A DNA stretch of 64,000 nucleotides from Frondihabitans sp. PhB188. Its GTDB lineage: Bacteria; Actinomycetota; Actinomycetes; Actinomycetales; Microbacteriaceae. The notes under the pieces were generated by a model. The model searched no databases, had not been told where the DNA came from, and worked only from the letters and a program-made list of their open reading frames with translations. How positions within the stretch are numbered: the stretch's first letter is position 1; the number at the start of each line of letters is the position of its first letter. The stretch lies in NCBI RefSeq assembly GCF_003752365.1, contig NZ_RJUO01000001.1, forward strand, positions 558,001 through 622,000, in the 5' to 3' direction. Positions 1,751 to 64,000 of the stretch are shown piece after piece. The translations under genes were made by a program, and so were the position numbers.

Positions 1751-1762
1751 GTTCCTGCGCCC
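1751..1762 (+). repeat. GTTCCTGCGC decamer, intergenic copy
   Basis: An exact GTTCCTGCGC followed by CC lies 8 bases after the fabH stop. It is one of two intergenic copies of the dispersed decamer discussed in the findings. Confidence 0.6.
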
Positions 1763-1832
1763 TCGAAGCCGAGCGGAGCCCTTCGAAAACCACCGGTCCA
1801 GCGTGCCGTGCACCCGCGCTGACACCGTGCAA

Positions 1833-1838
1833 TAGGAT
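1833..1838 (+). promoter_or_regulatory. Candidate -10 hexamer for acpP
   Basis: TAGGAT lies 45 bases before the acpP start in the fabH-acpP gap. No good -35 is visible 17 bases upstream. It would give acpP-fabF their own promoter, consistent with the high ACP demand of the cell. This is a motif-only inference. Confidence 0.35.
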
Positions 1839-1877
1839 TTACCCCGGTCACAACGACACCTCAAGGAGAGAACAACA

Positions 1878-2126
1878 ATGGCACAGTCCACCGAAGAAGT
1901 CCTGGCCGGCCTGGCCGAGCTCATCAACGACGAGACCGGTATCGCCACCGACACCGTCGAGATGGACAAGTCGTTCACCGACGACCTCGACATCGACTCG
2001 ATCTCGATGATGACGATCGTCGTCAACGCCGAAGAGAAGTTCGACGTCAAGATCCCCGACGACGAGGTCAAGAACCTCAAGACCGTCGGCGACGCCGTGA
2101 CCTTCATCACCAAGGCTCAGGGCTAA
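1878..2126 (+). CDS. acpP: Acyl carrier protein
   Basis: This is an 82-residue acidic protein carrying growing acyl chains on 4'-phosphopantetheine. Ser41 in the DIDSISM motif is the attachment site. The ATG is preceded by AAGGAGAG at 1863-1870, one of the strongest ribosome binding sites in the window. It lies between fabH and fabF, the usual actinobacterial FAS II order. A hairpin follows the stop, which could raise acpP message relative to fabF. Confidence 0.97.
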   Translation: MAQSTEEVLAGLAELINDETGIATDTVEMDKSFTDDLDIDSISMMTIVVNAEEKFDVKIPDDEVKNLKTVGDAVTFITKAQG

Positions 2127-2136
2127 TCGTCCCGCA

Positions 2137-2169
2137 GCTCGGCCCGCGTCGTCTCGGCGCGGGCCGAGC
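2137..2169 (+). terminator. Hairpin between acpP and fabF, partial terminator or mRNA stabiliser
   Basis: Perfect 12-bp arms GCTCGGCCCGCG and CGCGGGCCGAGC flank a 9-base loop. There is only a short T run downstream. Its position after acpP suggests attenuated read-through into fabF or protection of the acpP message. Confidence 0.5.
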
Positions 2170-2212
2170 GCTGTTTCCGGGGCCTGACGCCCCGATCGTT
2201 TAGGAGACCATT

Positions 2213-3448
2213 GTGACCAAGAAGATCGTCGTCACCGGCATCGGTGCGACCACCCCCCTCGGCGGAACGTTCGCCGACACCTGGACCGCGCTGCTCGCTA
2301 AAGAGAGCGGCATCCGCACCGTCGACGAGCCGTGGGTCGAGACGTACGACCTCCCCATCCGCTTCGCGGGCAGCGTCAAGGTCTCGCCCGACGAGGTGCT
2401 GACCCGTCAAGAGACGAAGCGCCTCGACCCCTCCAGCCAGTACGCGCTCATCGCTGCGCGCGAGGCCTGGGCGGACGCAGGATCACCCGAGGTCGTGCCC
2501 GAGCGCTTCCTGGTCGACTGGGCCACCGGCATCGGGGGCATCTGGACCCTGACGGACGGCATGGACACCCTCCGCGAGAAGGGCGCCCGCCGCGTCCTCC
2601 CGATGACGATCCCCATGCTCATGCCGAACGGCCCGGCCGCCGCCGTCTCGATGGCGCTGGGTGCCCGTGCCGGTGCCCGGACCGTCGTGTCGGCCTGCGC
2701 CTCCAGCACCGAGTCGATCGCCAACGCCTACGACCACCTGCAGAACGGCGATGCCGACATCGTCATCGCCGGCGGGTCGGAGGCCTCGATCCACCCGCTC
2801 CCCCTCGCCGCCTTCGCGGCGATGCACGCTCTCTCCTCGCGCAGCGACGACCCGGCCACTGCATCGCGCCCGTACGACGTCACCCGCGACGGCTTCGTCC
2901 TGGGCGCAGGCGGTGCCGCCCTGGTCATCGAGACCGAGGAGCACGCCCTCGCCCGCGGTGCCCGGATCTACGCCGAGCTGCTCGGCGGCGCCGTCACCAG
3001 CGACGCCTTCCACATCACCGCTCCCGACCCGGAGGGCACCGGTGGTGCCCGCGCTGTGATCAACGCCCTGGAGCGCGCCGGAGTGGAGCGCACCGACGTC
3101 GCGCACATCAACGCGCACGCGACCTCGACGCCCGTCGGCGACATCGCCGAGATCCGCGCCCTCGAGCGCGTGTTCGGCGACCACCTCGGCAGCATCGCGA
3201 TCTCGGCCACCAAGTCGTCGACCGGTCACCTGCTCGGCGGTGCCGGGGCGATCGAGGCCGCGTTCACGGTCAAGGCCCTCGCCGAGAAGACTCTGCCGCC
3301 GACGATCAACACGACCCAGATGGACGACAGCATCCACATCGACCTCGTCACCGAGCCCCGCCCCATCGGCGACGAGCCGATCGTGGCGATCTCGACGTCG
3401 TTCGGGTTCGGCGGGCACAACGCGGTCGTCGCCCTCAGGTCCGTCTGA
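2213..3448 (+). CDS. fabF: Beta-ketoacyl-ACP synthase II (KAS II)
   Basis: FabF elongates acyl-ACP with malonyl-ACP. The 411-residue protein has the condensing-enzyme residues Cys162 (VSACASST), His302 (NAHATSTP), Lys334 and His339 (KSSTGHLLG). The GTG start is chosen because AGGAG lies at 2202-2206, seven bases before it, and because the N-terminus MTKKIVVTGIG is typical. It closes the fabD-fabH-acpP-fabF cluster. Its stop codon lies inside the first copy of a 78-bp repeat that continues downstream. Confidence 0.97.
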   Translation: MTKKIVVTGIGATTPLGGTFADTWTALLAKESGIRTVDEPWVETYDLPIRFAGSVKVSPDEVLTRQETKRLDPSSQYALIAAREAWADAGSPEVVPERFLVDWATGIGGIWTLTDGMDTLREKGARRVLPMTIPMLMPNGPAAAVSMALGARAGARTVVSACASSTESIANAYDHLQNGDADIVIAGGSEASIHPLPLAAFAAMHALSSRSDDPATASRPYDVTRDGFVLGAGGAALVIETEEHALARGARIYAELLGGAVTSDAFHITAPDPEGTGGARAVINALERAGVERTDVAHINAHATSTPVGDIAEIRALERVFGDHLGSIAISATKSSTGHLLGGAGAIEAAFTVKALAEKTLPPTINTTQMDDSIHIDLVTEPRPIGDEPIVAISTSFGFGGHNAVVALRSV

Positions 3449-3543
3449 GCGGCGGCCGCCTGCGGCGCCGGACCTTCGACAGGCTCCGGTCGTCCGGCGT
3501 CTCCGGTGACCACCACCGCCGTCTGAGCGGCGGCCGCCTGCGG
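3441..3543 (+). repeat. 78-bp repeat family, fabF locus (one full unit plus a truncated second)
   Basis: A 25-bp stretch at 3441-3465, covering the last fabF codons, recurs exactly at 3519-3543, giving a 78-bp period. The unit contains CGCCGGAC and GTCCGGCG, which can pair into a hairpin. The same unit with the same period occurs at 35992-36147. It has no coding potential and resembles a REP-type extragenic element. Confidence 0.7.
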
Positions 3544-3566
3544 CCGATCCGTGGTCTGGCGGACGC

Positions 3567-3598
3567 ACGAAGGCCCGGTCTCGCGACCGGGCCTTCGT
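3567..3598 (+). terminator. Intrinsic terminator of the FAS II operon, possibly bidirectional
   Basis: Perfect 14-bp arms, ACGAAGGCCCGGTC and its complement, flank a TCGC loop, followed by TCTTGC. It lies between the convergent fabF and DUF3145 genes. Confidence 0.8.
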
Positions 3599-3648
3599 CT
3601 TGCACGTCCCCGTGTCGATGGGGCCGCACGTGGTGCAGTCTGACGCGT

Positions 3649-4167
3649 CTAGCCGACCTTGTGGAGCCACACGACGGGGTTGCCCTCGCCGGCGTGGCGG
3701 AACGCCTCCAGCTCGTCGTCCCACGCCTGGCCGAGGGCGAGACGCAGCTCGCGGTGGAGCTCCAGGGTGTTCGATCCTGCGATCTCCATCGCGTAGCGGA
3801 TCCGGTCTTCGGGCACGACCGTGTTGCCCACGGAGTCGGTCTGCGCGAAGAAGACGCCGAGGTCGGGCGTGTGCATCCAGCGCCCGCCGTCAGCCCCGTC
3901 AGACGGGTCTTCGGTCACCTCGTAGCGCAGGTGCTCCCACCCGCGCAACGCGGACGCGATAGCCGCGCCGGTGCCGGCAGGGCCCTCCCAGTGGAACTCA
4001 GCGCGAAGCGAGCCCTTCAGGACAGGCTGATCAGCCCACAAGAAGTTGACCGCACGGCCGAGGGCACGACCAGCAGCCCACTCGACATGCGGGCTCAAAG
4101 CACGTGGGGACGAGTGGACGAAAAGGACGCCCTGCGCCACCGACGCAGTGTTGGTTATTGCAGCCAC
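3649..4167 (-). CDS. DUF3145 domain-containing protein
   Basis: This 172-residue protein of unknown function matches the actinobacterial DUF3145 family, as I recognise it, over its whole length (for example LFVHSSPRALSPHVEWA near the N-terminus and NPVVWLHKVG at the end). No signal peptide or membrane segment is visible. The family often neighbours fatty-acid synthesis genes, as here. The GTG start has GGAGG a few bases upstream, and a promoter lies at 4241-4270. The specific function is unknown. Confidence 0.85.
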   Translation of the reverse strand: MAAITNTASVAQGVLFVHSSPRALSPHVEWAAGRALGRAVNFLWADQPVLKGSLRAEFHWEGPAGTGAAIASALRGWEHLRYEVTEDPSDGADGGRWMHTPDLGVFFAQTDSVGNTVVPEDRIRYAMEIAGSNTLELHRELRLALGQAWDDELEAFRHAGEGNPVVWLHKVG

Positions 4168-4240
4168 GATTCCTCCGTTCGATTAGGTGCGACTTCCCCA
4201 TCGACCTGGTGAACGGATCCTTCGTGGTGGTTCTGTGTGA

Positions 4241-4270
4241 ATTATGGCCGATCAAGCCTGGAAATCACAA
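4241..4270 (-). promoter_or_regulatory. Candidate promoter of the DUF3145 gene
   Basis: On the minus strand TTGTGA (4265-4270) and CATAAT (4241-4246) are separated by 18 bases, in an unusually AT-rich gap. It would drive the DUF3145 gene with a leader of about 65 bases. Confidence 0.55.
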
Positions 4271-4302
4271 CTGTGTAATCCCCGGGAACCCGGAATCGCC
4301 CT

Positions 4303-5931
4303 CTACTTGGCATCGGCGTAGGAGCGCACGGTCGCCACCGTGACAGGGAACAGCACCGGAGCCGACCCGAACAGCAGGCGCCCGGCCTCCGCCGCGGCCT
4401 CCTCGACCAGGCCCGCGACCTCGGCCGCGCTCTGCTCGGGCGCGTGCACGACGACCTCGTCATGCAGGAAGAACACTAGGTGCGGCGCGTCGTCGTCGGT
4501 GCCGAAGCGCTCGGCCAGACGGCGCCGCAACGACCCCATCCAGCACAGGGCCCACTCGGCGGCGGTGCCCTGCACGACGAAGTTGCGCGTGAAACGGCCC
4601 CAGGCACGCTCAGCGGTGCCCACGTCTCCGGTGCCCATCTCCGGCGGGAGCGCCTCGCCACCCGGCTTGGGCGACGTCCGGCCGAGGAGGGTGTGCACCA
4701 CTCCCCCGTGCTCTCCCTCGCGCGCCGCCTTCTCGACGAACGCGATCGCGTCGGGGAACGCTCTCGTGAGGCGGGGCATGAGGCGGCCGCCGTCGCCCGA
4801 GGTCGCGCCGTACATCGCGCCCAGCATGGCGACCTTCGCCTCGGCGCGCGTGGCCACGGCCCCGGTCGCGACGATCCCCTCGTAGAGGTCTCCGGCGCCG
4901 GCCCGGGCCATGGCCCGGTCGCGCGAGAGGGCGGTCAGGATCCGCGGCTCGAGCTGCGACGCGTCGGCCACGACGAGCGTCCAGCCGTCGTCGGCGACCA
5001 CCGCGCCGCGTACGGCCTTCGGCAGCTGCAGCGCTCCGCCGCCCGAGGTGCCCCACCGGCCCGTCGCGGCGGCGGCCGGGACGTACTCCGGCCTGAACCG
5101 CCCGCCGACGATCCACTCGTCGACCCACGCCCAGCCGTTCGCGGCGAACAGGCGCTGCTTCTTCTTGTAGGCGAGCAGGGGCTCGATGACGGGATGCTCC
5201 AGCTCCCGGAGCTCCCACTGGCGGGTGGTCCGCACGTCGAGACCGGCGCCACGAAGGGCCTTCAGCAGCTCGCCGGGCGAGTCGGGGTTGAGGTCGGGTG
5301 ATGCGAGGGCCACGCGGATCTCGGCGAGGTCGCGCTGCATCGCGGCCGGCCGTGCGCCGATCGACGGCCGAGGCCCCAGCAGGGTCGTGAGCAGGTCGTC
5401 GTGGCGCTCAGACGACCACGGGATGCCCCGGTGCCGCATCTCGGCGGCGATCAGCGCGCCCGTCGACTCGGCCACCGCCAGCAGCTCCAGTCGCGGTCGC
5501 TCGACGCTGGCCTCGATCGCGGCCCTCTGGCGCAGGAACTCGCCCACGGGATCGGGCAGCGACTCCGGCTCGACGACGAACAGCACGCCGGAGTCGTGCG
5601 GAGCGGCCTGAGGGGCGTCCCACACGCCCGGGGCCTCCCCGTGGATCTCAGCGCCGACGGCGAAGGCGGAGCGCCGCAGGATCGCATGCAGCAGCCGGAG
5701 GTCGACGCAGCGCTCGACCCGGAGGCCGCGCTCCAGCAGCCGCGGGTACCAGCGCGCCGTGTCGTCCCACACCCAGCGCGTCGCCGCGTGCTCGCCCTCG
5801 ACGATCACGTCATCGATCTCGGACGGCAGGAACTCGCGCCCCTCGCCGACCTCCAGTGCGCCGCCGCGTCCCCGCGTCACCGGCGTCGCCCGAACCCCCT
5901 CGCCGGGCAGGCGGGCGAGCACGGTGAACAT
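4303..5931 (-). CDS. Family A DNA polymerase (bifunctional 3'-5' exonuclease/DNA polymerase type)
   Basis: The 542-residue protein has the polymerase motifs of family A: motif A around Asp323 (VADASQLEPR), motif B from Arg362 to about Gly375 (RAEAKVAMLGAMYG), and motif C HDE at 490-492. The 5' nuclease of full PolA is absent. The N-terminal 170 residues sit where the exonuclease domain should be, but I see no clear DxE acidic pair, so proofreading is doubtful. It is probably a second, repair-related polymerase, with classical PolA encoded elsewhere. The -10-like TAGAGT (5939-5944) ends 7 bases before the ATG, predicting a leaderless message. Confidence 0.88.
   Translation of the reverse strand: MFTVLARLPGEGVRATPVTRGRGGALEVGEGREFLPSEIDDVIVEGEHAATRWVWDDTARWYPRLLERGLRVERCVDLRLLHAILRRSAFAVGAEIHGEAPGVWDAPQAAPHDSGVLFVVEPESLPDPVGEFLRQRAAIEASVERPRLELLAVAESTGALIAAEMRHRGIPWSSERHDDLLTTLLGPRPSIGARPAAMQRDLAEIRVALASPDLNPDSPGELLKALRGAGLDVRTTRQWELRELEHPVIEPLLAYKKKQRLFAANGWAWVDEWIVGGRFRPEYVPAAAATGRWGTSGGGALQLPKAVRGAVVADDGWTLVVADASQLEPRILTALSRDRAMARAGAGDLYEGIVATGAVATRAEAKVAMLGAMYGATSGDGGRLMPRLTRAFPDAIAFVEKAAREGEHGGVVHTLLGRTSPKPGGEALPPEMGTGDVGTAERAWGRFTRNFVVQGTAAEWALCWMGSLRRRLAERFGTDDDAPHLVFFLHDEVVVHAPEQSAAEVAGLVEEAAAEAGRLLFGSAPVLFPVTVATVRSYADAK
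5530..5539 (-). repeat. GTTCCTGCGC decamer, in-phase coding copy
   Basis: The copy lies in the polymerase gene in the phase that reads Phe-Leu-Arg with common codons, so codon usage alone can explain it. Confidence 0.4.
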
Positions 5932-5967
5932 ACGTTCGACTCTACCGGCGCGCGGGATGTCGTCAGC

Positions 5968-6892: not shown

Positions 6893-6918
6893 GAGCCGAT
6901 CCGACGGGGGCGGGCCTG

Positions 6919-9200: not shown

Positions 9201-9212
9201 GTTCCTGCGCCC
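9201..9212 (+). repeat. GTTCCTGCGC decamer, intergenic copy
   Basis: An exact decamer followed by CC lies in the 79-bp gap upstream of the excalibur gene, within its presumed promoter. See the findings. Confidence 0.6.
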
Positions 9213-11286: not shown

Positions 11287-11315
11287 ACGGGGCGGCTCCC
11301 CCCGGGGTTCTCGCT

Positions 11316-11361
11316 GGGACGCTTTCCCTGGGCGTGAATTCACGCCCAGGGAAAGCGTCCC
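11316..11361. terminator. Perfect 46-bp palindrome between convergent genes
   Basis: Arms GGGACGCTTTCCCTGGGCGTGAA and its exact complement meet at GAATTC with no spacer. With convergent genes on both sides it can act as a bidirectional terminator, but it has no T run and is longer than the other terminators here, so a mobile or recombination origin is also possible. Weaker complementarity continues outside the arms. Confidence 0.6.
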
Positions 11362-11443
11362 GAGACCGAACCCCCGCGGCTCGCGGACACAGTCTTCGTC
11401 TCGATCGCTTCAGGTCGGACGGGCGGATGCCCGGGGCGCGGCG

Positions 11444-21643: not shown

Positions 21644-22735
21644 TCAGTACCTCACTCGCGGGTCGATGAACGCCGCGACGATGTCGACGATGAAGTTGGT
21701 GACCGCGACGATGACCGCGAGAAGGGCGACGATGCCCTGCACCGCCACGAAGTCGCGTGCCGAGAGGTACTGCTGGAGCTCGAAGCCGAGGCCGCGCCAG
21801 CCGAACGTGGTCTCGGTCAGGACGGATCCGCCGAGCAGCATGGCGATCTGCAGGCCCATGACCGTGATGATCGGGATGAGCGCCGGCTTGAGGGCGTGTG
21901 CGCGCACGAGCTTGATCTCGGAGACCCCGCGCGAGCGGGCGGCGTCGATGTAGTCGGCGCCGAGCGTGCCGATGACGTTCGTGCGGACGAGGCGCAGGAA
22001 CACGCCGCCGGTGATCAGGCCGAGGGCGAGGGCGGGCATGACCGCGTGGGCGAGGACGTCGGTGATGATCGTCGGGTTTCCCGTGCGGAGCGCGTCGATG
22101 ATGTAGATGCCCGTCGGGTTCGGGATGCCGCCGAGCGCCAGCTCGATCCGGGTCGACGCGCGGCCGCCGAGCGGGAGCCAGCCGAGCCAGACCGAGAAGA
22201 CGAGCTTGAGCAGGAGGCCGGCGAAGAACACCGGGGTCGCGTAGGTGAAGATCGCGAAGACGCGGAGGATCACGTCGGGCCAGCGGTCGCGCACGTAGGC
22301 GGCCAGCATGCCGAGCGGGATGCCCACGATGAGCGCGACGATGAGCGCGTAGAACACCAGCTCGATCGTGGCGCCGCCGTAGGTCAGGAGGATGTCGATG
22401 ATCTTCTGGTGATCGGTCAGCGTCGTGCCGAAGTCTCCGCGAGCGAGCTGCCCGAGGTACTCGCCGTACTGGACGATGATCGGCCGGTCGTAGCCGGCGG
22501 CGTGCAGCCGCTCCTGCAGCTGGGCCGGGGTCAGGCGTCCGCCGACCGCGGCCGTGATCGGGTTGCCGACCACGCGCATGAGGAAGAACACGAGGGTGAC
22601 GAGGATGAACACCGTCGGGAAGATCAGCAGGAAGCGGATCAGGACGTAGCGCCCGAGCCCGCCTCCCCGCGTTCGCTCGCGGCGGGGGCCGGACACGGCG
22701 GGCGCCGTCGGCGAGGTGTCGTTGAGAACTGTCAC
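21644..22735 (-). CDS. Peptide ABC transporter permease (DppB type)
   Basis: A 363-residue permease with about six helices; the first is LIRFLLIFPTVFILVTLVFFLM. The TM domain has the loop LGADYIDAARSRGVSEIKLVRAHALKPALIPIITVMG, the EAA-type coupling helix of the DppB family, here quoted only in part by its key residues Asp-Ala-Ala-Arg-Gly. It is separated from the binding-protein gene by a strong hairpin, the common arrangement that keeps binding protein more abundant than permease. Confidence 0.92.
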   Translation of the reverse strand: MTVLNDTSPTAPAVSGPRRERTRGGGLGRYVLIRFLLIFPTVFILVTLVFFLMRVVGNPITAAVGGRLTPAQLQERLHAAGYDRPIIVQYGEYLGQLARGDFGTTLTDHQKIIDILLTYGGATIELVFYALIVALIVGIPLGMLAAYVRDRWPDVILRVFAIFTYATPVFFAGLLLKLVFSVWLGWLPLGGRASTRIELALGGIPNPTGIYIIDALRTGNPTIITDVLAHAVMPALALGLITGGVFLRLVRTNVIGTLGADYIDAARSRGVSEIKLVRAHALKPALIPIITVMGLQIAMLLGGSVLTETTFGWRGLGFELQQYLSARDFVAVQGIVALLAVIVAVTNFIVDIVAAFIDPRVRY

Positions 22736-34242: not shown

Positions 34243-35186
34243 ATGTCCACGACCTCCGCGCCCTCCGCGCCCTCGCCGAGACCGGCAGCATCACCGCCGC
34301 CGCAGCGCGACTCGGCTACAGCCAGCCCGCGATCACCCAGCGCCTGCGCCGGGCCGAGGCGGAGGCCGGCCAGCCTCTTCTGCTCCGAACCGGCCGCACC
34401 GCGACGCTGACCGAGGCTGGTCGGCGCCTCGCGCGCCACGCCGTGCACGTCGAGGCCGCCCTGGCCGCGGCGCACGACGAGCTCGACGCCCTCGCCGGCA
34501 CCGAGAGCGGGGCACTCCGCCTGGCCGGGTTCCCGAGCGCCTCCCCCACCCTCGTGCCGGCCCTGCTCGCCGACCTGGCCGCGCGGCACCCGGGGCTGAC
34601 CACGTCGTACCTCGAGGCCGAGCCTCCCGAGGCCGTCGAGCTTCTGCGCCGGGGCGAGATCGACCTCGCGCTCACGTTCACCTACCCCGGCGACGGCGGG
34701 CTGCCCGACGCGGACGTGGTCGAGGTGCCCCTCTTCCGCGACACGATGCTGGCGGTGGCGCCCGCCGGGACGTTCCCGGCGCAAGATGCCGGCCATCTCG
34801 AGTTCCTGCGCGAGATGCCCTTCATCGCGGGGTGCCCCCGCTGCCGCGGCCACCTGCTCGCCGTGTGCCGCCTCGCCGGGTTCGAGCCGCGCATCGTGCT
34901 CGAGACCGACAACGCCCTGGCCGTGACGGGGCTCGTCGCGGCCGGACTCGGCGTGGCCCTGCTGCCCTCGCTCTCGCTCGTGCCCGCAGCGCTTCCCGAC
35001 GGCGTCGAGGTGCGAGCCCTGGGCGATGACAGCGACCGGATCGTGGCCGTCGCGCACGCTCGCGGTGCGGAGGGGATCCCCGCGGTGGGGGCCGGGCTCC
35101 GTGCTGCCCGCCGGATCGCTCCCGCGTCGTTCGGGCTCCGTGCGGCCGAGCGCCGTCGCGCCGAGCAGCCCGCCGCCGCCGGCTGA
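34239..35186 (+). CDS. LysR family transcriptional regulator
   Basis: A 315-residue regulator. The N-terminal winged helix-turn-helix is at about residues 3-60 (LRALRALAETGSITAAAARLGYSQPAITQRLRRAE, core GSITAAAARLGYSQPAITQ). The C-terminal effector-binding fold (DLAARHPGLTTSYLEAEPPE) follows. The start has TAACAT six bases upstream and is inside its own operator, so the message is probably leaderless and autoregulated. The effector is unknown; the target is probably the divergent PLP enzyme gene. Confidence 0.9.
   Translation: MDVHDLRALRALAETGSITAAAARLGYSQPAITQRLRRAEAEAGQPLLLRTGRTATLTEAGRRLARHAVHVEAALAAAHDELDALAGTESGALRLAGFPSASPTLVPALLADLAARHPGLTTSYLEAEPPEAVELLRRGEIDLALTFTYPGDGGLPDADVVEVPLFRDTMLAVAPAGTFPAQDAGHLEFLREMPFIAGCPRCRGHLLAVCRLAGFEPRIVLETDNALAVTGLVAAGLGVALLPSLSLVPAALPDGVEVRALGDDSDRIVAVAHARGAEGIPAVGAGLRAARRIAPASFGLRAAERRRAEQPAAAG
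34802..34811 (+). repeat. GTTCCTGCGC decamer, in-phase coding copy
   Basis: Within the LysR gene; reads Glu-Phe-Leu-Arg with common codons, so codon usage can explain it. Confidence 0.4.
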
Positions 35187-38554: not shown

Positions 38555-40378
<1,824 letters not shown>

Positions 40379-46805: not shown

Positions 46806-47537
46806 TCACCAGCGGCCGAGGCGGACGCTGAGCACGGCGATAGCGGCGGGCCCCGCGGTGGAGGTGCGCAGCACGCTGTCGCCGAGCCGCACCGCGACCG
46901 CACCCGCGGCGACCAGGCCGTCGACCTCGTGGGGGGTGATGCCGCCCTCCGGGCCGACCACGACGACGACGTCGCCGACGTCGGGCAGGGCGACGCTCGA
47001 CAGCGCCTCCGTGGCGGTGGGGTCGAGCACGAGGACCCGCGCGGTTCCTGCGCGCGATTCGAGCTGTCTGGTGGTCGCCACGTCGCCGACCCGCGGCTGC
47101 CACGCCCGCACCGACTGCTTCGTCGCCTCGCGCACGATGGCGCTCCAGCGGGCGAGGCCCTTGGCGACCTTCGGGCCCTCCCACTTCGAGATGCTGCGGG
47201 CGGCGGCCCACGGCACGATCTCGTCGACGCCGAGCTCGGTGGCGGCCTGCACGGCCAGCTCGTCGCGGTCGCCCTTGGCGAGGGCCTGGGCCAGGACGAG
47301 GCGGCGATCGGGCGCAGGAACGTGCCCGACCTCCGCCGCTTCCAGCACCAGGCGGTCGCCCGAGGCCTCGAGCACCTCCCCCTCGACGACCAGCCCGCGG
47401 CCGTTGCCGACCCGGAGGGTCTCGCCGACCCGAACCCGGCTCACCGTCACCGCGTGGCGAGCCTCGGGGCCGGTGACGACCACCTGGGCGCCGACCCCGG
47501 TGTCGCCGAGCTCTTCGACGAGGTAGAAGTGCGCCAC
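46806..47537 (-). CDS. rsmE: 16S rRNA (uracil1498-N3)-methyltransferase
   Basis: A 243-residue SPOUT methyltransferase with the knot motifs VVVVGPEGGITPHEVD and VRLGDSVLRTSTAGPAAIAVL. The GTG at 47537 starts 2 bases after the dnaJ stop. It contains two off-phase copies of the decamer, at 47044 and 47312. Confidence 0.93.
   Translation of the reverse strand: MAHFYLVEELGDTGVGAQVVVTGPEARHAVTVSRVRVGETLRVGNGRGLVVEGEVLEASGDRLVLEAAEVGHVPAPDRRLVLAQALAKGDRDELAVQAATELGVDEIVPWAAARSISKWEGPKVAKGLARWSAIVREATKQSVRAWQPRVGDVATTRQLESRAGTARVLVLDPTATEALSSVALPDVGDVVVVVGPEGGITPHEVDGLVAAGAVAVRLGDSVLRTSTAGPAAIAVLSVRLGRW
47044..47053 (+). repeat. GTTCCTGCGC decamer, off-phase coding copy
   Basis: Within rsmE the minus strand reads GCA-GGA-ACC (Ala-Gly-Thr). 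GCA and GGA are rare codons in this genome. Confidence 0.55.
47312..47321 (-). repeat. GTTCCTGCGC decamer, off-phase coding copy
   Basis: Within rsmE the minus strand reads GTT-CCT-GCG-CCC (Val-Pro-Ala-Pro), using rare GTT and CCT. Confidence 0.55.
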
Positions 47538-51664: not shown

Positions 51665-52315
51665 TCAGTCGCCCACCAGCACGCGGAGGTAGCGCTGGGT
51701 GTACTTCGTCTGCTGGAGGCGCAGGAACGGCGCGACCAGGCGCCACTTCCAGTTCGCCGGCTTCGAGAACACCCGCACGGTCAGCCAGACGGAGCCGTCG
51801 TCGGTCTGGTCGATGACCCAGCTCTCCTCGCCGCTCTCGGGGTGGCCGTCGAGCGTGCCGTAGGCGAAGCCCTTGCGCGTCGGGTCGTCGATCACGTAGA
51901 CGACGCGGACCGGCGCGTGGACGGTGCGGCCGTAGGCGTGGATGTCGAGGACGGCCTCGGTTCCGGCGACCAGGAACGGCTCGCCCTCGGGGCTGAAGTG
52001 CGACTCGCCGGTCGGAGCGGCGTAGTCGGCGGGGTCGAGCGGGTTGCCCTCGTCGTCGAAGGTGACGGGCGTGTACGCACCCTCCTCGAACGACGGGGTG
52101 CTGGTGACGCGCACGCGGATGCCGCTGCGCTCCTGGACCTTCCACGTCATGATCGCGGCCCAGGCGGCCTCGAAGCGGGCGTCGCCGTGGCCGATGCGCG
52201 TGCGGTACTCGGCGGGGCGGAATCCCTTCGGCGGGTACTGCAGGAGGTCGGGCGCCTGGGTAGCCCCGACCTGCCCGTAGGTGGTCTGGATCTCGGTGTG
52301 GGTCTGACGGCGCAT
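51665..52315 (-). CDS. DUF1990 family protein
   Basis: A 216-residue protein. The N-terminus (LQYPPKGFRPAEYRTRIGHG) and the later DDPTRKGFAYGTLDGHPESGEESW are DUF1990 features; the fold is START-like. Function is unknown. TAGAAT (52322-52327) ends 6 bases before its ATG, one of the cleanest leaderless signals here. Stop and hemW start are 2 bases apart. Confidence 0.82.
   Translation of the reverse strand: MRRQTHTEIQTTYGQVGATQAPDLLQYPPKGFRPAEYRTRIGHGDARFEAAWAAIMTWKVQERSGIRVRVTSTPSFEEGAYTPVTFDDEGNPLDPADYAAPTGESHFSPEGEPFLVAGTEAVLDIHAYGRTVHAPVRVVYVIDDPTRKGFAYGTLDGHPESGEESWVIDQTDDGSVWLTVRVFSKPANWKWRLVAPFLRLQQTKYTQRYLRVLVGD
51719..51728 (-). repeat. GTTCCTGCGC decamer, in-phase coding copy
   Basis: Within the DUF1990 gene; reads Phe-Leu-Arg with common codons, so codon usage can explain it. 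Confidence 0.4.
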
Positions 52316-56382: not shown

Positions 56383-57411
56383 CTAGCGCGTAGCGCCTCG
56401 ACGGCTGACGACGCTGACCATGCGCTCGAGGGCGTACACGGCGTCGCGCTCGGCGCCCTTGACGGCGGCGTCGGTGGTGGCGATGAGGTCGATGGCGCGG
56501 CCGAGCCCCTCGTCGGACCACCCGCCGAGGTCGCGCTGCGCGCGCTGCACCTGCCAGGGCGCCAGCCCGAACCGCGACGCCAGCTCGCCCTGGCTGGAGC
56601 GCCCGCCGCCGCTGACCTTGGCCATGGTCCGGAGCTTGGACGCGAAGGCGGCGACGATCGGCACGGGGTCCTGCCCCGAGGCCAGCGCATGCCGCAGCAG
56701 GATCAGGGCCTCACCCTGCCGCCCGGCGATCGCGGTGTCGGCGACCTTGAACGCGTTGGTCTCGACGCGACCCGAGTAGTACTTCTCGACGGTCACCTCG
56801 GTGATCTCGGCGGCCCCGTCGGCAAGGAGCTGCTGGCACGCGGAGGCGAGCTCCGAGAGGTCGTCCTGGAACGCCTGCACCAGCGCACGAAGGGCTCCGG
56901 CCGATACGCGCCGCCCCTCGGCGGCGAACTCGGCGGCGGCGAAGTCGAGCTTCTCGGTGTCTTTCTTGAGCTCGGCGCAGATGACCTCGATGCCGCCGCC
57001 GAGGCCGCCGCGGAGCGCGTCGAGCAGCTTCTTGCCTCGGACTCCCCCGCCGTGGCGGAGCACGAGGTAGGTGTCGTCGGCCGGCGCCTCCAGGTACGAG
57101 AGCGCCTCCTGCAGGAATGCGTCGGTGCACTTCTCGACGTTGGCGACTCGGATGAGGCGCGGCTCGGCGAACAGCGACGGGCTTGCCAGCGTGATCAGCT
57201 CACCGGGGCCGTACTGGTCGGCCGAGAGATCGTGGACCTCGAGCCGAGGGTCTTCGGCGACAAGCTGGTCGCGCAGCTGCCGGACGGACCGGTCGGCGAG
57301 AAACTGCTCGGGCCCCGAGACCAGGATCACGGGCGCCGGACGAATGGCGTCCCATCCGACCTGGGCGATCTGGACGGCCTTCGTCGCCTTGCCCGCGGTT
57401 CGCGCTGCCAT
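56383..57411 (-). CDS. holA: DNA polymerase III subunit delta
   Basis: A 342-residue clamp-loader subunit with the N-terminal segment PVILVSGPEQFLADR and the helical C-terminus. The ATG at 57411 has GGAGGAGAG upstream. The comEC frame runs over its first 212 bases. Confidence 0.92.
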   Translation of the reverse strand: MAARTAGKATKAVQIAQVGWDAIRPAPVILVSGPEQFLADRSVRQLRDQLVAEDPRLEVHDLSADQYGPGELITLASPSLFAEPRLIRVANVEKCTDAFLQEALSYLEAPADDTYLVLRHGGGVRGKKLLDALRGGLGGGIEVICAELKKDTEKLDFAAAEFAAEGRRVSAGALRALVQAFQDDLSELASACQQLLADGAAEITEVTVEKYYSGRVETNAFKVADTAIAGRQGEALILLRHALASGQDPVPIVAAFASKLRTMAKVSGGGRSSQGELASRFGLAPWQVQRAQRDLGGWSDEGLGRAIDLIATTDAAVKGAERDAVYALERMVSVVSRRGATR

Positions 57412-59737
57412 GTCTCTCCTCCGGGCGGTCCGTGCCGGGCCGTGTCGAGCGGCCCGGGGCCGCGACCGGTTCGGCGAGGCCGGGGTCAAGCCTAGGTGCA
57501 CCGGCCGTCACGCGTGCTCCTGCGCGCCAGACGGCGATGCCGCCGTCGGAGTCGCGGGCGAGGGCGACGGTGCCGTCCTCGTCGCTGCGGACGACGGCGG
57601 CGCCGACCGACTGCAGCAGGTCGACGGTCTGCGCGACGGGGTGGCCGTAGGTGTTGTCGGCCCCGACGCCGATCAGGGCGATGCGGGGCCGTAGTTCCTG
57701 GTACAGAGAAGGGCTCTGGTCGCGCGACCCGTGGTGCGACACCTTGACGACGTCGACCGGGCCGAAGTCGGTGCGTCCGCGCAGGCGCGCCTGCTCGCGT
57801 TCGCCGAGGTCGCCCAGCAGCACCGCGGTCAGCTGCGCCGGCGCGCAGACCGAGGCGCACGAGACCGAGAGCACGACGCTCGCCTCGTTGCCCGGCGTCG
57901 TCCCGTCAGGCGGCCACAGCATGGTGAGCCGCGCGTCGCCCAGCCGAGTCGACGCACCCGGCGTCGCGGCGACCACCGCCCGAGCCCTGAGCGCAGGAAC
58001 GACGTCGCCACCGCCCGGCCCCACGAGCACGGTCTCCACCCGCCCGGCCAGCGACCCGGACGCGCCGACGTGGTCGGCGTCGAAGTGGGTGAGCACGAGG
58101 AGGTCGATCCGGCCGATGCCGAAGGACTGCAGGCAGGTGGCCAGCAAAGCCGCATCGTCGCCGGTGTCGACGAGCGCCACCCTGCCCGCCGACCGGACGA
58201 GCACGGCGTCGCCCTGGCCCACGTCGCACTGCGCGATCTGCCAGTCGGCGGGGAGGGTCGCGCGGCGGCCGAGCGTGCCGCCGGCGGTGGTCGCGGCCAG
58301 GGGCACGAGGAGCGCGAGCAGGGCGGAGGTCGCGACACGGCGGGCGCGGCGGTGCGACGGCGCGAGCACCGCGGCGGCGGCCAGCAGCACGACGAGTGCG
58401 GCGACCCCGACGGCGAGAGCGCCCGCGCCCCACTCGAGCCGCGCCCCGGGGACGCCGGCCGCGAACCGGGCCACCGCGGCGATCCAGGTCGAGGGGAGCC
58501 CCGCGGCGTGAGACACGGCGACCGCGGCGGCGGGCCAGACGGGGCCGAGCAGGCACGCGACCAGGCCGAGGACCGTCGCGACGGGTGCCGCCGGTTCGGC
58601 GAGGACGTTGGCGGGGATGCCGACGAGCGGCACACCGGGGTCGAGCAGGAGCAGCAGCGGCTGGCAGGCCAGCTGCGCCGCGATCGGCACGGCGAGAGCG
58701 ACTGCGATCGGCGACGGCACGACCCGGGCCAGGACGAGGCTGAGCGGCCCGGTCAGCACCACGAGCCCCGCGGTCGCCAGCACCGACAGGGCGAACCCGA
58801 ACGATCGCGCGAGCCACGGGTCGCTCAGCAGGAGCACGACGACGGCGAGCGACACCAGAGGGAGCCCGCGCACGGGTCGTCCCCACGCAGTCAGGGCGAG
58901 CCCCGCCAGAGCCATGACGGCGGCGCGCTGGACGCTCGGCTCGGGAGTCACCAGCACCACGAATCCGCCGAGCACCAGGGCGGCTGCCCCGTAGCGAACG
59001 AGCCGCGGCACCCCGAGCGCGGCCGCCAGCATTAGCGTGACGGCGACGACGACGGCGCAGTTCGCACCCGACACCGCCGTGAGGTGGGCCAGAGACGACC
59101 GTTTCATCGCCTGGTCGAGGTCGGCCGAGACGCGTGCCGTGTCGCCGAGCGTCAGCCCCGGGAGCAGGTCGCCGCCGTCGCCCGGGAGACCGGCGGTGGT
59201 GCGCGCGAAGCCGTCGCGTAGGTCGGCGGCCCACCCGCCGAGCCCCGACGCAGGCCTCACCACCTCGACCGGCGAGGACGGCCGCAACGCCAGCGCATGG
59301 GGATCGCCGGGGGTGAACTCGGAGAGCCGGCCGGTCACGGCGACGGTGTCGCCGGCGGTGGGCCAGGCGGCGCCCGGCTCCGCGCCGAGGACGAGGGTGC
59401 GGAGGGGGTGGGCGGGTTCCTGCGCCCCGACCCTGCTGATCGACAGGGTGAGCGTGCCGGTACGCGGATCGGGCAGGCCGACGACCTCGCCGACGACGGC
59501 CGTCGAGGTGTTCGGCAGCGACTCCGGCGACGGCAGGCGGATCCACGCCGACCCGGCGAGGGCTGCGACGACGCCGAGCATCACGGCCACGAGCCCGAGC
59601 CGCCGACCGACGAGCAGCACGCACGACCCGACCGCGGCGACTCCCGCGATCATCGGCAGCGCGGCAGGGTGAGGCAGCGCGAGCACCAGCGCACCCCACC
59701 CCGCCGCCGCCGGCGCCGCCAGCCGCACGTCGATCAC
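57200..59737 (-). CDS. comEC: ComEC/Rec2 DNA-uptake channel, frame running into holA
   Basis: A competence membrane channel for single-stranded DNA. N-terminal helices, then a ComEC core (SLAHLTAVSGANCAVVVAV) and a C-terminal metallo-beta-lactamase domain (THFDADHVG and VSHHGSRDQSPS). The family homology ends around DEDGTVALARDSDGGIAVWR near 57520, but the frame has no stop for another 100 codons. The last 212 bases overlap holA. The GTG at 59737 overlaps comEA by 4 bp. A lost stop or a sequencing error is possible. Confidence 0.88.
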   Translation of the reverse strand: MIDVRLAAPAAAGWGALVLALPHPAALPMIAGVAAVGSCVLLVGRRLGLVAVMLGVVAALAGSAWIRLPSPESLPNTSTAVVGEVVGLPDPRTGTLTLSISRVGAQEPAHPLRTLVLGAEPGAAWPTAGDTVAVTGRLSEFTPGDPHALALRPSSPVEVVRPASGLGGWAADLRDGFARTTAGLPGDGGDLLPGLTLGDTARVSADLDQAMKRSSLAHLTAVSGANCAVVVAVTLMLAAALGVPRLVRYGAAALVLGGFVVLVTPEPSVQRAAVMALAGLALTAWGRPVRGLPLVSLAVVVLLLSDPWLARSFGFALSVLATAGLVVLTGPLSLVLARVVPSPIAVALAVPIAAQLACQPLLLLLDPGVPLVGIPANVLAEPAAPVATVLGLVACLLGPVWPAAAVAVSHAAGLPSTWIAAVARFAAGVPGARLEWGAGALAVGVAALVVLLAAAAVLAPSHRRARRVATSALLALLVPLAATTAGGTLGRRATLPADWQIAQCDVGQGDAVLVRSAGRVALVDTGDDAALLATCLQSFGIGRIDLLVLTHFDADHVGASGSLAGRVETVLVGPGGGDVVPALRARAVVAATPGASTRLGDARLTMLWPPDGTTPGNEASVVLSVSCASVCAPAQLTAVLLGDLGEREQARLRGRTDFGPVDVVKVSHHGSRDQSPSLYQELRPRIALIGVGADNTYGHPVAQTVDLLQSVGAAVVRSDEDGTVALARDSDGGIAVWRAGARVTAGAPRLDPGLAEPVAAPGRSTRPGTDRPEERHGSANRGQGDEGRPDRPGRMGRHSSGARDPGLGARAVSRRPVRPAAARPACRRRPSARGPRSLGRPVRPR
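57991..58000 (-). repeat. GTTCCTGCGC decamer in comEC, off-phase
   Basis: The minus strand reads GTT-CCT-GCG (Val-Pro-Ala), using rare GTT and CCT. Confidence 0.6.
59416..59425 (+). repeat. GTTCCTGCGC decamer in comEC, off-phase
   Basis: The minus strand reads GCG-CAG-GAA (Ala-Gln-Glu). GAA is a rare codon in this genome. Confidence 0.6.
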
Positions 59738-60387
59738 CCCGCCACCACGCTCTCCCGCAGCGCCTCGAGCTTCTTCTCGCCGATCCCCGGCACGTCGAGA
59801 AGGTCTTCGACGGCGGCGAACCGCCCGTGCTCGTCGCGCCACGCGAGAATCGCGGCGCTCGTCGCCGGCCCGACGCCCGACAGCGTCTCGAGGGTCGCGG
59901 CGTCGGCCGCGTTGAGGTCGACCATGCCCGAAGGCGCCGACGACGACGACGTGCCGGCTGGCGGCACCGGCGAAGCCGACTCCCCCACCCTCGGCACGAC
60001 GATCTGCTCGCCGTCGGCGACCGTGCGAGCGAGGTTCAGCGCTGTCTGGTCGGCATCGCCGCGAAACCCGCCGGCCCGGGCCACCACGTCGACCGCCCGC
60101 GACCCGGACGCCACCTCGTACAGTCCGGGCCGCTCGACCCGCCCCAGGATGTGCACGAACACCCGCCCCGGCGAAGGCGTCGAGAGCGCCGGGGCCGGCG
60201 TCGTGAACGACGACACGGGCGCAGGAACATCGGCTACCGCCTGCCGCCCCGCCGTGATGGCCGACACCGCCACCACGATCCCGACCAGGACCACCGCCGC
60301 CACGACCGCCGCGCCCACGGCCACCCGCCACCGCGGCGCCGACCCCGGCTCGCGGAAGTCCGGCGTGCGCCCCTCTGAACTGCTCAT
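59734..60387 (-). CDS. comEA: ComEA DNA-binding competence protein
   Basis: A 217-residue membrane-anchored DNA receptor for uptake: a helix near residues 24-45, an SLBB-like domain (FVHILGRVERPGLYEVASG) and the C-terminal helix-hairpin-helix pair (LNAADAATLETLSGVGPATSAAI and VPGIGEKKLEALR). It overlaps comEC by 4 bp. Pilus genes are not in the window. Confidence 0.93.
   Translation of the reverse strand: MSSSEGRTPDFREPGSAPRWRVAVGAAVVAAVVLVGIVVAVSAITAGRQAVADVPAPVSSFTTPAPALSTPSPGRVFVHILGRVERPGLYEVASGSRAVDVVARAGGFRGDADQTALNLARTVADGEQIVVPRVGESASPVPPAGTSSSSAPSGMVDLNAADAATLETLSGVGPATSAAILAWRDEHGRFAAVEDLLDVPGIGEKKLEALRESVVAG
60219..60228 (-). repeat. GTTCCTGCGC decamer in comEA, off-phase
   Basis: The minus strand reads GTT-CCT-GCG-CCC (Val-Pro-Ala-Pro) with two rare codons. 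Confidence 0.6.
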
Positions 60388-60423
60388 GCGGCCACGCTAG
60401 GAAAGCGGCGGCCCCGGAGACGA

Positions 60424-60459
60424 CGGAGCCGCCGATCTGTGCAGAGATCGGCGGCTCCG
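60424..60459 (-). terminator. Terminator hairpin of leuS
   Basis: Perfect 15-bp arms (CGGAGCCGCCGATCT and its complement) with a GTGCAG loop, 28 bases past the leuS stop. No T run. Confidence 0.7.
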
Positions 60460-60487
60460 AGGCCCTGTGGAGAACAGGACGACAGCG

Positions 60488-63100
60488 TTACTTCACGGCG
60501 ATGTTCACCACGCGCGGCGCCCGCACGATCACGTTGACGATCTCTTTGTCGCCGACGGCGCGCCTCACGGCCGCCGACTCGCGAGCCAAGGCCTCCAGCT
60601 CGTCGGCGCCGATCTTCGGCGAGACCTCGAGACGGTCGCGCACCTTGCCGTTGACCTGGATCACCGCGGTGACGCTGGTCTCGACGAGCAGCGTCGGGTC
60701 GGCCTTGCGCCAGCCGAAGGTCGCGACGTCGGAGTCGTAGCCGAGGCGCTCCCACATCTCGGCCGCGGTGTGCGGCGAGAACAGCGACAGAGCGAGAGCC
60801 ACGGTCTCGGTGGCCTCTCGCACGGCCGGGTCGGCGGGGCCCGCGCCCGAGTCGACGGCCTTGCGGATCGTGTTGACGAGCTCCATGAGGCGCGCGACGA
60901 CGACGTTGAACTTGAACGCCTCGACCAGGCTCGGGGCCTCCGACAGGAAGCGGTGCGTCGAGCGGCGGAGGTTCTGGTCGCCCTCGGCCCACACGGCGTC
61001 GGGCGTCGAGGCGACGTCGTTCGCCAGGCGGAAGGCCCGCGCCAGGAACTTGGCGGCGCCGGCGGGCGACACGTCTTCCCAGTTGATGTCGTCTTCGGGC
61101 GGGCCGGCGAACGCCATGGTGAGGCGGATCGCGTCGACGCCGTGCTCGGCGAGCTCGTCGCTCAGGTTGACGCCGCCCTTCGACTTCGACATCTTCGAGC
61201 CGCCCGAGAGCACCATGCCCTGGTTCAGCAGCGCGCTGAAGGGCTCGGTGAAGCCCACGTAGCCGAGGTCGAACAGCACCTTGGTGATGAAGCGCGCGTA
61301 CAGCAGGTGCAGGATCGCATGCTCGACACCGCCGACGTACTGGTCGACGGGCGCCCACTTGTCGGCCTCCTTCGGGTCGAAGGCCATGGTGTCGTCGTTC
61401 GGGTTGAGGTAGCGCAGGTAATACCACGACGAGTCGACGAAGGTGTCCATCGTGTCGGGGTCGCGGAGGGCCGGACTGCCGTCGCGAGGGTCCTCGACGG
61501 TGACCCACTCGGTGGCGGCGCCCAGCGGCGACTGGCCCTTGGGCTTGAGGTCGAGGCCCTCGGTCGACGGCAGCTCGACGGGGAGCTGGTCGAGCGGAAC
61601 AGGGATCTCGACGCCGTCGGCGCCGTGGATGATCGGGATCGGGGTGCCCCAGAAGCGCTGGCGCGAGATGAGCCAGTCCCGGAGGCGGTACGTCTTGGCG
61701 GCGCGGCCGTCGCCGGCGGTCTCCAGCGCCTCGATGATGCGCTTGATGCCGTTCGACTTGCTCAGCCCGGTGAAGACGCCCGAGTTCAGCAGGCGGCCCT
61801 CGCCGGTCAGGGCGGTGCCCGTCTCGGCGGGGTCGGTCGGCTCCAGATCGTCGGGCAGGATCGCCTGGCCGTTCTCGTCCAGCTCGAGCGCGGGGATCAC
61901 ACCGGTCACGGGCGCGTTCACGTCGACGACGACGCGCACGGGCAGGTCGTACTTCAGGGCGAAGTCGAGGTCGCGCTGGTCGTGCGCCGGCACGGCCATG
62001 ACGGCGCCGTGGCCGTAGTCGGGCAGGACGTAGTCGGCGGCCCACACCGGGATCCGCTCGCCGGTCAGCGGGTTCTTGGCGTAGCGGCCGAGGAAGACGC
62101 CCTGCTTCGGGCGGTCGGCGGTCTGGCGCTCGATCTCGGTGCTCTTCTGCACCTCGGTCAGGAATGCCTGGAACGTCTCGGCGATCGCGGCGTCGTCCGC
62201 GCCGGCGACGAGCTCCGCCGCCAGGTCGGACTCCGGCGCGACGACCATGAAGGTGACGCCGTGCAGGGTGTCGGGGCGCGTCGTGAAGACCGTGATCTTC
62301 TCGGCGCGGCCCTCGACGGCGAAGTCGACGTCGGCACCCGTCGAGCGCCCGATCCAGTTGCGCTGCATCGCCAGCACCTTCGACGGCCAGCGGCCCTCGA
62401 GCTGGTTCAGGTCGTCGAGCAGGCGGTCGGCGTAGTCGGTGATCTTGAAGTACCACTGCGTGAGCTTCTTCTTCACCACGACGGCGCCCGAGCGGTCGGA
62501 CGTGCCGTCGGCGAGCACCTGCTCGTTGGCGAGGACGGTCTGGTCCACAGGGTCCCAGTTGACCCAGCTGTCTTTCCGGTAGGCCAGGCCCTTCTCGTAC
62601 ATCTTGAGGAACAGCCACTGGTTCCACTTGTAGTACTCGGGGTCGGAGGTGTGGATCTCGCGGGTCCAGTCGACCGACACGCCGTACGCCTTCATGGCGG
62701 CGCGCTGCTGGTCGATGTTCGCGTACGTCCACTCGCGCGGGTCGGTGCCGCGCTTGATCGCGGCGTTCTCGGCGGGCAGCCCGAAGCTGTCCCAGCCCAC
62801 GGGGTGCAGCACCTGGAAGCCCTGCTGCCACCAGTAGCGGGCAACGATGTCGCCGAACGCGAACGCCTCGGCGTGACCCATGTGCAGGTCGCCCGACGGG
62901 TACGAGAACATGTCCATGATGTACTTGCGCGGGCGCTTGTCGGTCGGGTCGTCGATCGTGAACGGCTGGCGCTCCTCCCAGACGGCCTGCCACTTCGTCT
63001 GCAGGGCGGCGAAGTCGTAGGCGTTCGGGTCGACGACGGTCGACTCGCCGTCATCGCCGGCGGCGTCGGTCGTCAGGTTCTGCTCGTGCTCGTGTGCCAC
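60488..63100 (-). CDS. leuS: Leucyl-tRNA synthetase
   Basis: An 870-residue class I synthetase. HIGH-like motif [13 protein letters not shown] in SKMSKSKGG, the CP1 editing domain ([17 protein letters not shown]) and the anticodon domain are all present. The GTG at 63100 is preferred, since the frame upstream ([15 protein letters not shown]) looks like leader. The start is uncertain by about 15 codons. Confidence 0.95.
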
Positions 63101-63174
63101 GGAGGTTCTCAATTCACGTCTGGGGGTGCGGGCCCAGGAGCGCATCGCACTGGCGACGCCGCGGACCCAAGGAT

Positions 63175-64000
63175 CTAGATTAGCGAGTCCGGCACGCCGG
63201 AGGCGCCGAGGGCGGTCAGCAGGGCGCGGGCCTTGATCGCGACCTCGGCCAGCTCGTCGGCCGGGTCGGACTCGTTCGTGATCCCGCCGCCGACGCCGAC
63301 GCCGGCCTCGCCGGTGGGGAGGTCGAGCACGATCGACCGGATCACGACGGCCAGATCGACCGTGCCGTCGAATCCGAACCGCCCCGCGACCCCCGAGTAG
63401 AGTCCGCGAGGCCCGGCCTCCAGCCCCGCCAGGATCCGCACCACGCTGTGCTTCGGCGCCCCGGTCATCGACCCCGGCGGGAACGTCGCCCGCAGCACGT
63501 CGATGCCGGTGAGCCCGGGCCGCACCACGGCCGTCACCGTGCTGACGAGCTGGTGCACGTGCTCGAAGCCCTCGACGGCGAACAGCGACGACACGGCGAC
63601 GTGCTCGGGCCGCGACACCCGCGAGAGGTCGTTGCGCATGAGGTCGACGATCATCAGGTTCTCGGCGCGCTCCTTGCGGTTCGACGCGAGTTCCTGCGCC
63701 CGGGCCTCGTCGAGTCGCGAATCGGCCGAGCGCTCGCGAGTGCCCTTGATCGGCGACGTCGAGACCCGGCCCTCGGCATCGATGCGCAGGAACTCCTCGG
63801 GACTCGCCCCCAGCACGGCCGTCTCGCCGAGCCTGATGAACGACGCCCTCGGCGCCGGAGACGACCGCCGCAGCCGCGCGTAGAGGTCGAGGTCGCTCTC
63901 GCCGGTCACGACGGAGGCGCTCGTCGTCAGGCAGATGACGAAGGCGTCGCCGCGGTCGATCGCGGCCAGGCAGCCGGCGATCAGGTCGAGGTAGCGGGCG
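63175..64000 (-). CDS. pabB: Aminodeoxychorismate synthase component I, 5' truncated by the window edge
   Basis: A chorismate-binding enzyme of folate synthesis. The visible part begins [21 protein letters not shown] and has PIKGTRERS, where Lys rather than Ala marks PabB as opposed to TrpE. The motif [16 protein letters not shown] follows. The frame is open to the window edge. GTG at 63909 is internal, not the start. Confidence 0.88.
63690..63699 (+). repeat. GTTCCTGCGC decamer in pabB, off-phase
   Basis: On the minus strand it reads GCG-CAG-GAA (Ala-Gln-Glu) with rare GAA. Confidence 0.55.
63784..63793 (-). repeat. GTTCCTGCGC decamer, in-phase coding copy
   Basis: Within pabB; reads Phe-Leu-Arg with common codons, so codon usage can explain it. 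Confidence 0.4.

Follow-up and report, generated by a model that had tools for sequence, protein, structure and literature searches.

A dispersed decamer in Frondihabitans sp. PhB188 as a candidate dialect of a DNA uptake sequence in Microbacteriaceae

The Neisseriaceae and the Pasteurellaceae are given in a 2025 paper as the only families known to have uptake sequences (PMC12616744). In Neisseriaceae the minor pilin ComP reads the DNA uptake sequence (DUS), a short asymmetric word in high copy number on both strands, within and between genes. Related species have dialects around a common core, together with pilus minor pilins and com genes (PMC3630211, PMC12616744). The uptake signal sequence (USS) of Pasteurellaceae occurs as two broad types in the family, Hin-USS and Apl-USS, which share part of the word and have graded flanks (PMC12616744). 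Here we describe a decamer, GCGCAGGAAC, in a 64,000-bp stretch of Frondihabitans sp. PhB188 (Microbacteriaceae; contig NZ_RJUO01000001.1, positions 558,001 to 622,000), hereafter the window. Apart from the reader, for which Frondihabitans offers only candidates, the decamer is like the DUS in these features. It is unlike the DUS in its unrelated sequence, its Gram-positive high-GC host and its few inverted pairs. As in the USS, the flanks are graded and two word types occur in the family, CGGATGC and CAGGATGC/CAGGATC, which share GGAT. The sequence and the phylum differ from those of the USS, and the receptor is unproven in both. The decamer is best read, from sequence comparison, as one species' dialect of a family-wide element.

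Frondihabitans shares its order, Micrococcales, with Micrococcus luteus. Natural transformation of this actinobacterium depends on Flp/Tad pili (PMC4322843), unlike the PilB/PilT-type pair with a weaker Tad-like ATPase that we find in Frondihabitans. The terms 'uptake sequence' and 'uptake signal' are absent from the main text of that paper. Natural transformation has also been reported in two Microbacteriaceae (PMC11577799), and competence therefore exists in the family. No uptake sequence for Actinobacteria or Microbacteriaceae was found in our literature search, subscription papers and preprints being outside it. As far as we found, an uptake-sequence system would be new for Gram-positive bacteria.

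The window contains 14 exact copies of GCGCAGGAAC, seven per strand, against a mean of 0.24 and a largest count of 2 in 100 dinucleotide shuffles. A first-pass annotation had listed 13 copies; all 13 coordinates are exact, and one copy was overlooked (21992-22001, + strand). Two copies are intergenic (1751-1760 and 9201-9210, both -). The other 12 lie in genes. Five read Phe-Leu-Arg (5530-5539, +, in the gene at 4303-5931; 21992-22001, +; 34802-34811, -; 51719-51728, +; 63784-63793, +) and three read Val-Pro-Ala (47312-47321, 57991-58000 and 60219-60228, all +). Two read Arg-Ala-Gly-Thr (38844-38853, with the codons GCA GGA, and 47044-47053, both -) and two read Ala-Gln-Glu (59416-59425 and 63690-63699, both -). 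The annotation had placed four copies (5530, 34802, 51719 and 63784) in the Phe-Leu-Arg phase. All four belong there, with the overlooked copy as the fifth, and its nine remaining copies are indeed intergenic or in other frames. It was also right that three copies lie in competence genes, 57991 and 59416 in comEC and 60219 in comEA. When the synonymous codons of the window genes were shuffled 300 times, the decamer occurred 1.26 times on average and at most 5 times, against the 12 in-gene copies observed.

We refer to Frondihabitans sp. PhB188 as G000, to its six Frondihabitans congeners as G001-G006, and to other genomes by other G numbers. The G000 genome (3,793,925 bp, 10 contigs) holds 391 + 343 = 734 copies of GCGCAGGAAC, or 1 per 5.2 kb, and 7 copies of the reversed pattern, which served as a control. 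The six congeners have 14-39 copies each and 33 other genomes of the order have 1-110. The 12-mer GCGCAGGAACTC was searched in 299 family genomes drawn evenly from a larger group; G000 has 388 copies, and none of the 298 others has more than 18.

A by-product of codon usage or codon-pair preference (Phe-Leu-Arg, Ile-Leu-Arg, Leu-Leu-Arg) would be the simplest source of such a word. A purpose-built gene caller (90% coding; GC 70/49/93% by codon position) was used for the codon null, in which synonymous codons were shuffled within genes and counts were split by six phases. One earlier shuffle null kept the intergenic copies, and its expected values are too high. In the G000 sample 123 in-gene copies of the main word, GCAGGAAC, were observed where 24.5 were expected. 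Split by phase, observed over expected counts were 24/0.3, 3/0.9 and 26/3.4 on the same strand and 45/19.7, 24/0.1 and 1/0.2 on the opposite strand. Between genes there were 23 copies against 1.35 expected. The preferred-codon phase is the largest class (45 of 123 in G000, 50 of 137 in G006), as codon preference would have it. However, two rare-codon phases and the intergenic copies of G000 are enriched about 17- to over 200-fold, and a third phase (26/3.4) about 8-fold. The word also differs between congeners, and GCGCAGGAACTC is in excess only in G000. Because the strong excess persists in several phases and between genes after synonymous shuffling, codon use does not explain the bulk of the copies; it accounts for part of the Phe-Leu-Arg class only. 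The phase-resolved and window shuffles refute it for the bulk, and as a full explanation it is hardly credible. The first-pass annotation had named a frequency equal to a codon-shuffled null as a refutation of its proposal, and this equality did not hold in the window or in the sampled genome. Its view that selection acts on DNA rather than on protein is supported by the excess over the synonymous-codon nulls. As a separate observation, words of the TGCTGCTCG/CTGCTCG type lie above the codon-shuffle null in several Micrococcales (G041 and others), perhaps through codon-pair effects, and mark the noise level of the null.

High copy number in one species is also what a dispersed mobile repeat would produce, such as a repetitive extragenic palindrome (REP), a miniature inverted-repeat transposable element or an insertion scar. 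We aligned the flanks of 71 copies from 364 kb (the window and 15 other G000 stretches). G is favoured at -1/-2, and T, C and G/C are favoured after the decamer; further out the flanks are random. The conserved flank is thus at most about 3 bases on each side, and the copies are not part of a longer conserved element. Several sites (for example 21992 and 51719) differ from the congeners by substitution with the length unchanged; others are gapped. The random flanks argue against a REP or transposon, and together with the substitution-type differences they leave the mobile-repeat explanation with a very slim chance.

The seven Frondihabitans species all have a CAGGA-core word, spelled species by species. 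Outside G000 the main words are GCAGGATC, GCAGGATG/GCAGGAGC or CAGGATCCG. In stretches sampled from the congeners, observed over expected counts of GCAGGATC against the codon null, in genes and between genes, respectively, are 137/13.5 and 15/0.54 in G006, 35/4.1 and 9/0.34 in G005, 73/9.8 and 5/0.50 in G001, and 50/9.3 and 4/0.52 in G002. G001 is additionally enriched for GCAGGAGC (66/20.7). In G003 the words are GCAGGATG (50/10.3) and GCAGGAGC (55/16.2), and in G004 the word is CAGGATCCG (29/2.7 in genes, 7/0.24 between genes). GCAGGATC is the second word of G000 (84/19.3). One window copy of it (2477-2484, +) is off phase, with the codons GCA GGA, and is common only to G006 of the six congeners. 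In a ranking of 7-mers the top words contain or overlap CAGGA in all seven species, and an earlier Markov screen gave CAGGA words in 4 of the 5 congeners then sampled. In 120 genomes drawn evenly from a larger group (G002, G003, G005 and G006 being outside the draw), CGCAGGATCG has 406 copies in G001 and 123 in G000; none of the remaining 118 genomes, among them G004 with 27, exceeds 107.

A scan of single substitutions in G000, G006 and G045 found the inner 7-8 bases sharp and the flanks graded. Inner changes mostly drop the count to expectation, and the outer positions tolerate any base. The G006 word respelled with the G000 base was observed 0 times in that species (0.4 expected). A sharp core with graded flanks is expected of any sequence-specific protein, and so also of a binding site for a chromosome-organising or other DNA-binding protein whose function is unrelated to uptake. 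A change of dialect within the genus would then need the protein and very many sites to change together. Alternatively the word may be a target of DNA modification, and we know of no rule that would make such targets this abundant across phases and between genes. Taken together, these functions unrelated to uptake seem distinctly improbable.

Individual sites are seldom shared. By congener alignment, the place of 47312 has a CAGGA-core word in all seven species (with alignment gaps in G002 and G006). The place of 47044 has GCGCAGGATC in G002, G005 and G006 and GGCAGGATC in G001. The 5530 and 21992 sites are protein-constrained with partial matches in the congeners; at 5530 all six congeners have AGGAAC too. 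The place of 63784 has GCAGGAAC in G004 only, and for 59416 no congener alignment was obtained. The remaining window sites are mostly unshared, and turnover is therefore high. Positional conservation of GCAGGA (39.5%) is barely above that of 6-mers of the same composition (35.5%; rank 15 of 60), which again means that sites turn over fast. The first-pass annotation had also named a lack of conservation of off-phase sites in relatives as a refutation. The outcome is mixed: at two of the 14 places, both off phase (47044 and 47312), relatives hold dialect words, and most of the others are unshared.

Strand preference was examined in 11 genomes, over 83 stretches of 20-64 kb with 1,558 sites in all, each stretch being assumed to lie within one replichore. 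The counts fit 50:50 (chi2 66.1, p 0.91; p 0.23-0.95 per genome, with the strongest lean in G011, p 0.23). The observed majority fraction was 0.578; simulations gave 0.589 +- 0.008 for 50:50, 0.623 +- 0.010 for 60:40 and 0.752 for 75:25. Polarity of 60:40 or stronger is excluded, given one replichore per stretch. The first-pass annotation had argued for a non-polar motif from equal strand totals. Such totals alone cannot exclude a replichore-polar motif, but the test by stretch agrees with it. The motif family is real, is a feature of the DNA itself, is non-polar and is spelled in a lineage-specific way.

FtsK-orienting polar sequences (KOPS) and architecture imparting sequences (AIMS) are strongly polar towards the terminus. 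The lack of strand polarity is evidence against Chi and KOPS, and against any KOPS-type guide as the bound protein's function. The Chi sites of E. coli, one per 5 kb, favour the leading strand, and polarity has been used as a criterion for Chi (PMC8022716). A polar Chi or KOPS motif is unsupported here, as neither kind of polarity was found. In the Chi-like reading, a helicase-nuclease of the RecBCD/AddAB/AdnAB type would read the word and be switched by it from degradation to RecA loading. A non-polar signal for an AdnAB-type enzyme is the main rival, and we consider the Chi-like explanation unlikely. In its favour, all seven Frondihabitans have a pair of PDDEXK_1 nucleases that we take for AdnAB, and the decamer density in G000 is near that of E. 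coli Chi. The motif is unlike Chi in being non-polar and in being respelled within one genus, Chi being well conserved in Enterobacteriaceae (PMC8022716). Its density also speaks against Chi in G006, where the 8-mer GCAGGATC occurs 152 times in 160 kb, about five times the density of the G000 decamer (the word lengths differ).

Scarcity in foreign DNA fits Chi as well as an uptake word. The stretch L011 (G000:C2:1-20000; 62.8% GC) has a single motif site and gives scattered matches only, with no syntenic block, in the congeners; it is likely a foreign island, nearly free of the motif. Of the other 14 G000 stretches, 13 have 9-22 sites and L015 (65.6% GC) has 4. The decile of G000 genes with the lowest third-position GC (GC3) has 5 sites against 3.5 expected, counted as scarcity, and the same trend was seen in G002, G003, G004, G005, G011, G041 and G255, but not in G001, G006 or G045. 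Inverted pairs that act as terminators are common in Neisseria; here such pairs are rare, at 1.6-fold over expectation. Of the 57 inverted pairs within 40 bp, 16 are at least partly intergenic and some are self-overlapping palindromes; two intergenic stem-like pairs occur in G004.

A different word predominates in most of the other family genomes sampled. The sample comprised 18 further Microbacteriaceae genomes, with 40-140 kb taken per genome, and 9 genomes from other families of Micrococcales, with 40 kb each. G033, G043 and G070 were excluded (no or too little sequence), and L028 was excluded later since it overlaps L041. About 8,200 strand-merged 7-mers were ranked by enrichment over the six-phase codon null and intergenic composition, with the best category omitted. 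CGGATGC ranks 1-3 in 13 of the 18 other Microbacteriaceae and is outside the top three in G019, G021, G022, G065 and G069. It ranks 127 or worse in all nine genomes of other families and 297-2559 in Frondihabitans. Over a third-order Markov null, observed over expected counts of CGGATGC at named loci were 99/42 in Agromyces, 67/26 in Cryobacterium, 20/6 in Gryllotalpicola, 20/9 in Glaciihabitans and 18/9 in Pseudolysinimonas. The word is weak in Frigoribacterium (14/9) and Labedella (8/5), and stands at 3/5.5 at the Frondihabitans locus. Raw whole-genome counts of ACGGATGCC in 40 genomes, made without the codon null, gave 24-66 copies in the seven Frondihabitans. In 21 of the 33 other genomes there were 90-1194 copies (three above 1,000), and in the other 12 there were 3-67. 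GGAT is common to the Frondihabitans words (CGGATGCC, CAGGATGCC, CAGGATCC) and CGGATGC, and for this reason we infer that the words form one series.

The window also encodes ComEC (57200-59737, -; Competence and Lactamase_B domains) and ComEA (59734-60324, -; SLBB and helix-hairpin-helix domains), both identified by domain matches. ComEA is present in the four Frondihabitans checked (G000, G002, G004 and G006). ComEC is present in 29 of 30 genomes tested, including all seven Frondihabitans. In G002 a frame change near residue 318 splits comEC (L153, G002:C1:2979001-2987000, about 1210-3827); this could reflect either a sequencing error or true loss of competence. Among the four species with GCAGGATC as the main word, its excess is smallest in G002.

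All seven Frondihabitans have a strong (about 460 bits) and a weaker (about 170 bits) T2SSE match side by side (pilus operon stretches L165-L171 and L154-L160). In G000 the second ATPase is PilT (440.6 bits, cut-off 319.1) and the first is PilB-like (631.8 bits, below the curated cut-off of 675.65). PilB and PilT are the extension and retraction ATPases of a type IV pilus. The Tad-like ATPase is additional to this pair. Downstream of the ATPases all seven species have PilC, 1-3 major pilins, three minor-pilin-like proteins, a prepilin peptidase and PilM. In G000, G004 and G006 the reading extends further and includes PilO and a gene at the position of PilN (with a shorter call in G006); the other four were read to PilM. 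The third minor-pilin-like protein had no family match. PilB is 92-96% identical between species and the minor pilins 32-80%. Minor-pilin replacement as a simple cause of the G000 dialect did not hold up, as the minor pilins diverge in all seven species and their trees differ from a core tree of 31,774 columns. The stretches of G000 and G006 alone extend far enough to show rpsL, which lies just downstream of the pilus operon. In G005 the first 208 residues of PilC match one frame and the rest is called in another (L171, G005:C1:1197301-1205300, about 293-1518).

Elsewhere in the family, PilB was surveyed with at most 48 candidates scored per genome. On this basis PilB-strength matches occur in 8 of the 18 other genomes and in 7 of the 13 motif-positive ones. 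The CGGATGC excess is higher in the 8 genomes with PilB than in the 10 without (median 0.65 vs 0.36 per kb, one-sided p 0.017), in a comparison that was chosen after seeing the data and ignores relatedness. G025, G028 and G031, of other families, have PilB and are outside this comparison.

Several other repeats were met. The window has an inverted repeat of roughly 70-80 bp at 11300-11384 with a second occurrence at G000 C2:43653-43742, perhaps a small palindromic repeat element. Repeats of the TTTGCGGCTTTGCGG type (11-14 copies) and words of the AGTCCCGATCGTGG type (9-14 copies) in the G000 sample probably reflect tandem or local repetition. Three other families of Micrococcales show enrichment of the palindrome CACCGGTG (G030, G031, G035; L121-L124, L127-L128).

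The combination of dialects, non-polarity, a sharp core, and pilus and competence genes makes the DUS and USS the closest kind of known system, and we infer a role in DNA uptake. The decamer is probably how this species spells a DNA uptake sequence that is shared across the family. The uptake signal suggested in the first-pass annotation is thus the best-supported reading, on evidence that is circumstantial: dialects, non-polarity, one near-empty island that is likely foreign, and pilus and com genes. In such a system a minor pilin at the pilus tip, or ComEA, would bind the word, the pilus would then retract, and ComEA and ComEC would import one strand. Recombination of preferentially imported self DNA could multiply the copies by molecular drive, and a changed receptor specificity would shift the dialect.

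A number of observations weigh against an uptake sequence. The first Markov screen gave no CAGGA word among the top k-mers of G002. CTGCTCG and CGTCGACG exceed the codon null as well, so this null is imperfect. Inverted pairs within 40 bp are rare (57 vs 35.6 expected, 11 genomes), and genes of low GC3 are not depleted of the motif in G001, G006 and G045. ComEC is present in motif-free genomes too, and G021 has PilB yet no motif. Within the limit of 48 candidates, 6 of the 13 motif-positive genomes have no PilB-strength match, only matches of 125-147 bits that are taken for Tad-type. Dialects do not track the relationships of the minor pilins cleanly, for those of G004 and G006 are 76-80% identical, yet the words of these two species differ. 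G005 has a strong motif but a pilC gene that seems to be interrupted. The PDDEXK_1 pair counts here as well. Moreover, in the four sampled family genomes of 0.9-1.5 Mb ACGGATGCC occurs just 3-8 times, and both transformed Microbacteriaceae belong to a group whose genomes are smaller than 2 Mb (PMC11577799). Transformation in the family may therefore not need the word.

The uptake-sequence reading has a wider form, to which we give about an even chance. In it, a third, independently evolved uptake-sequence system, the first in Gram-positives, would run from a CGGATGC-type family word to the Frondihabitans species dialects (CAGGATGC, CAGGATCC, GCAGGATC, GCAGGAAC). These would be read by fast-evolving type IV minor pilins and would fence DNA exchange. 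Even if the recombination machinery were the reader, a non-polar signal respelled within a genus would be unexpected. The many natural dialects and candidate receptors offer material for the study of co-evolution between label and reader. If the uptake-sequence reading is true, Gram-positive bacteria, which have no outer membrane, would provide a third case. Labels of this kind would then be seen to evolve again and again and to be independent of passage through an outer membrane, and the system would account for barriers to gene flow within a large family.

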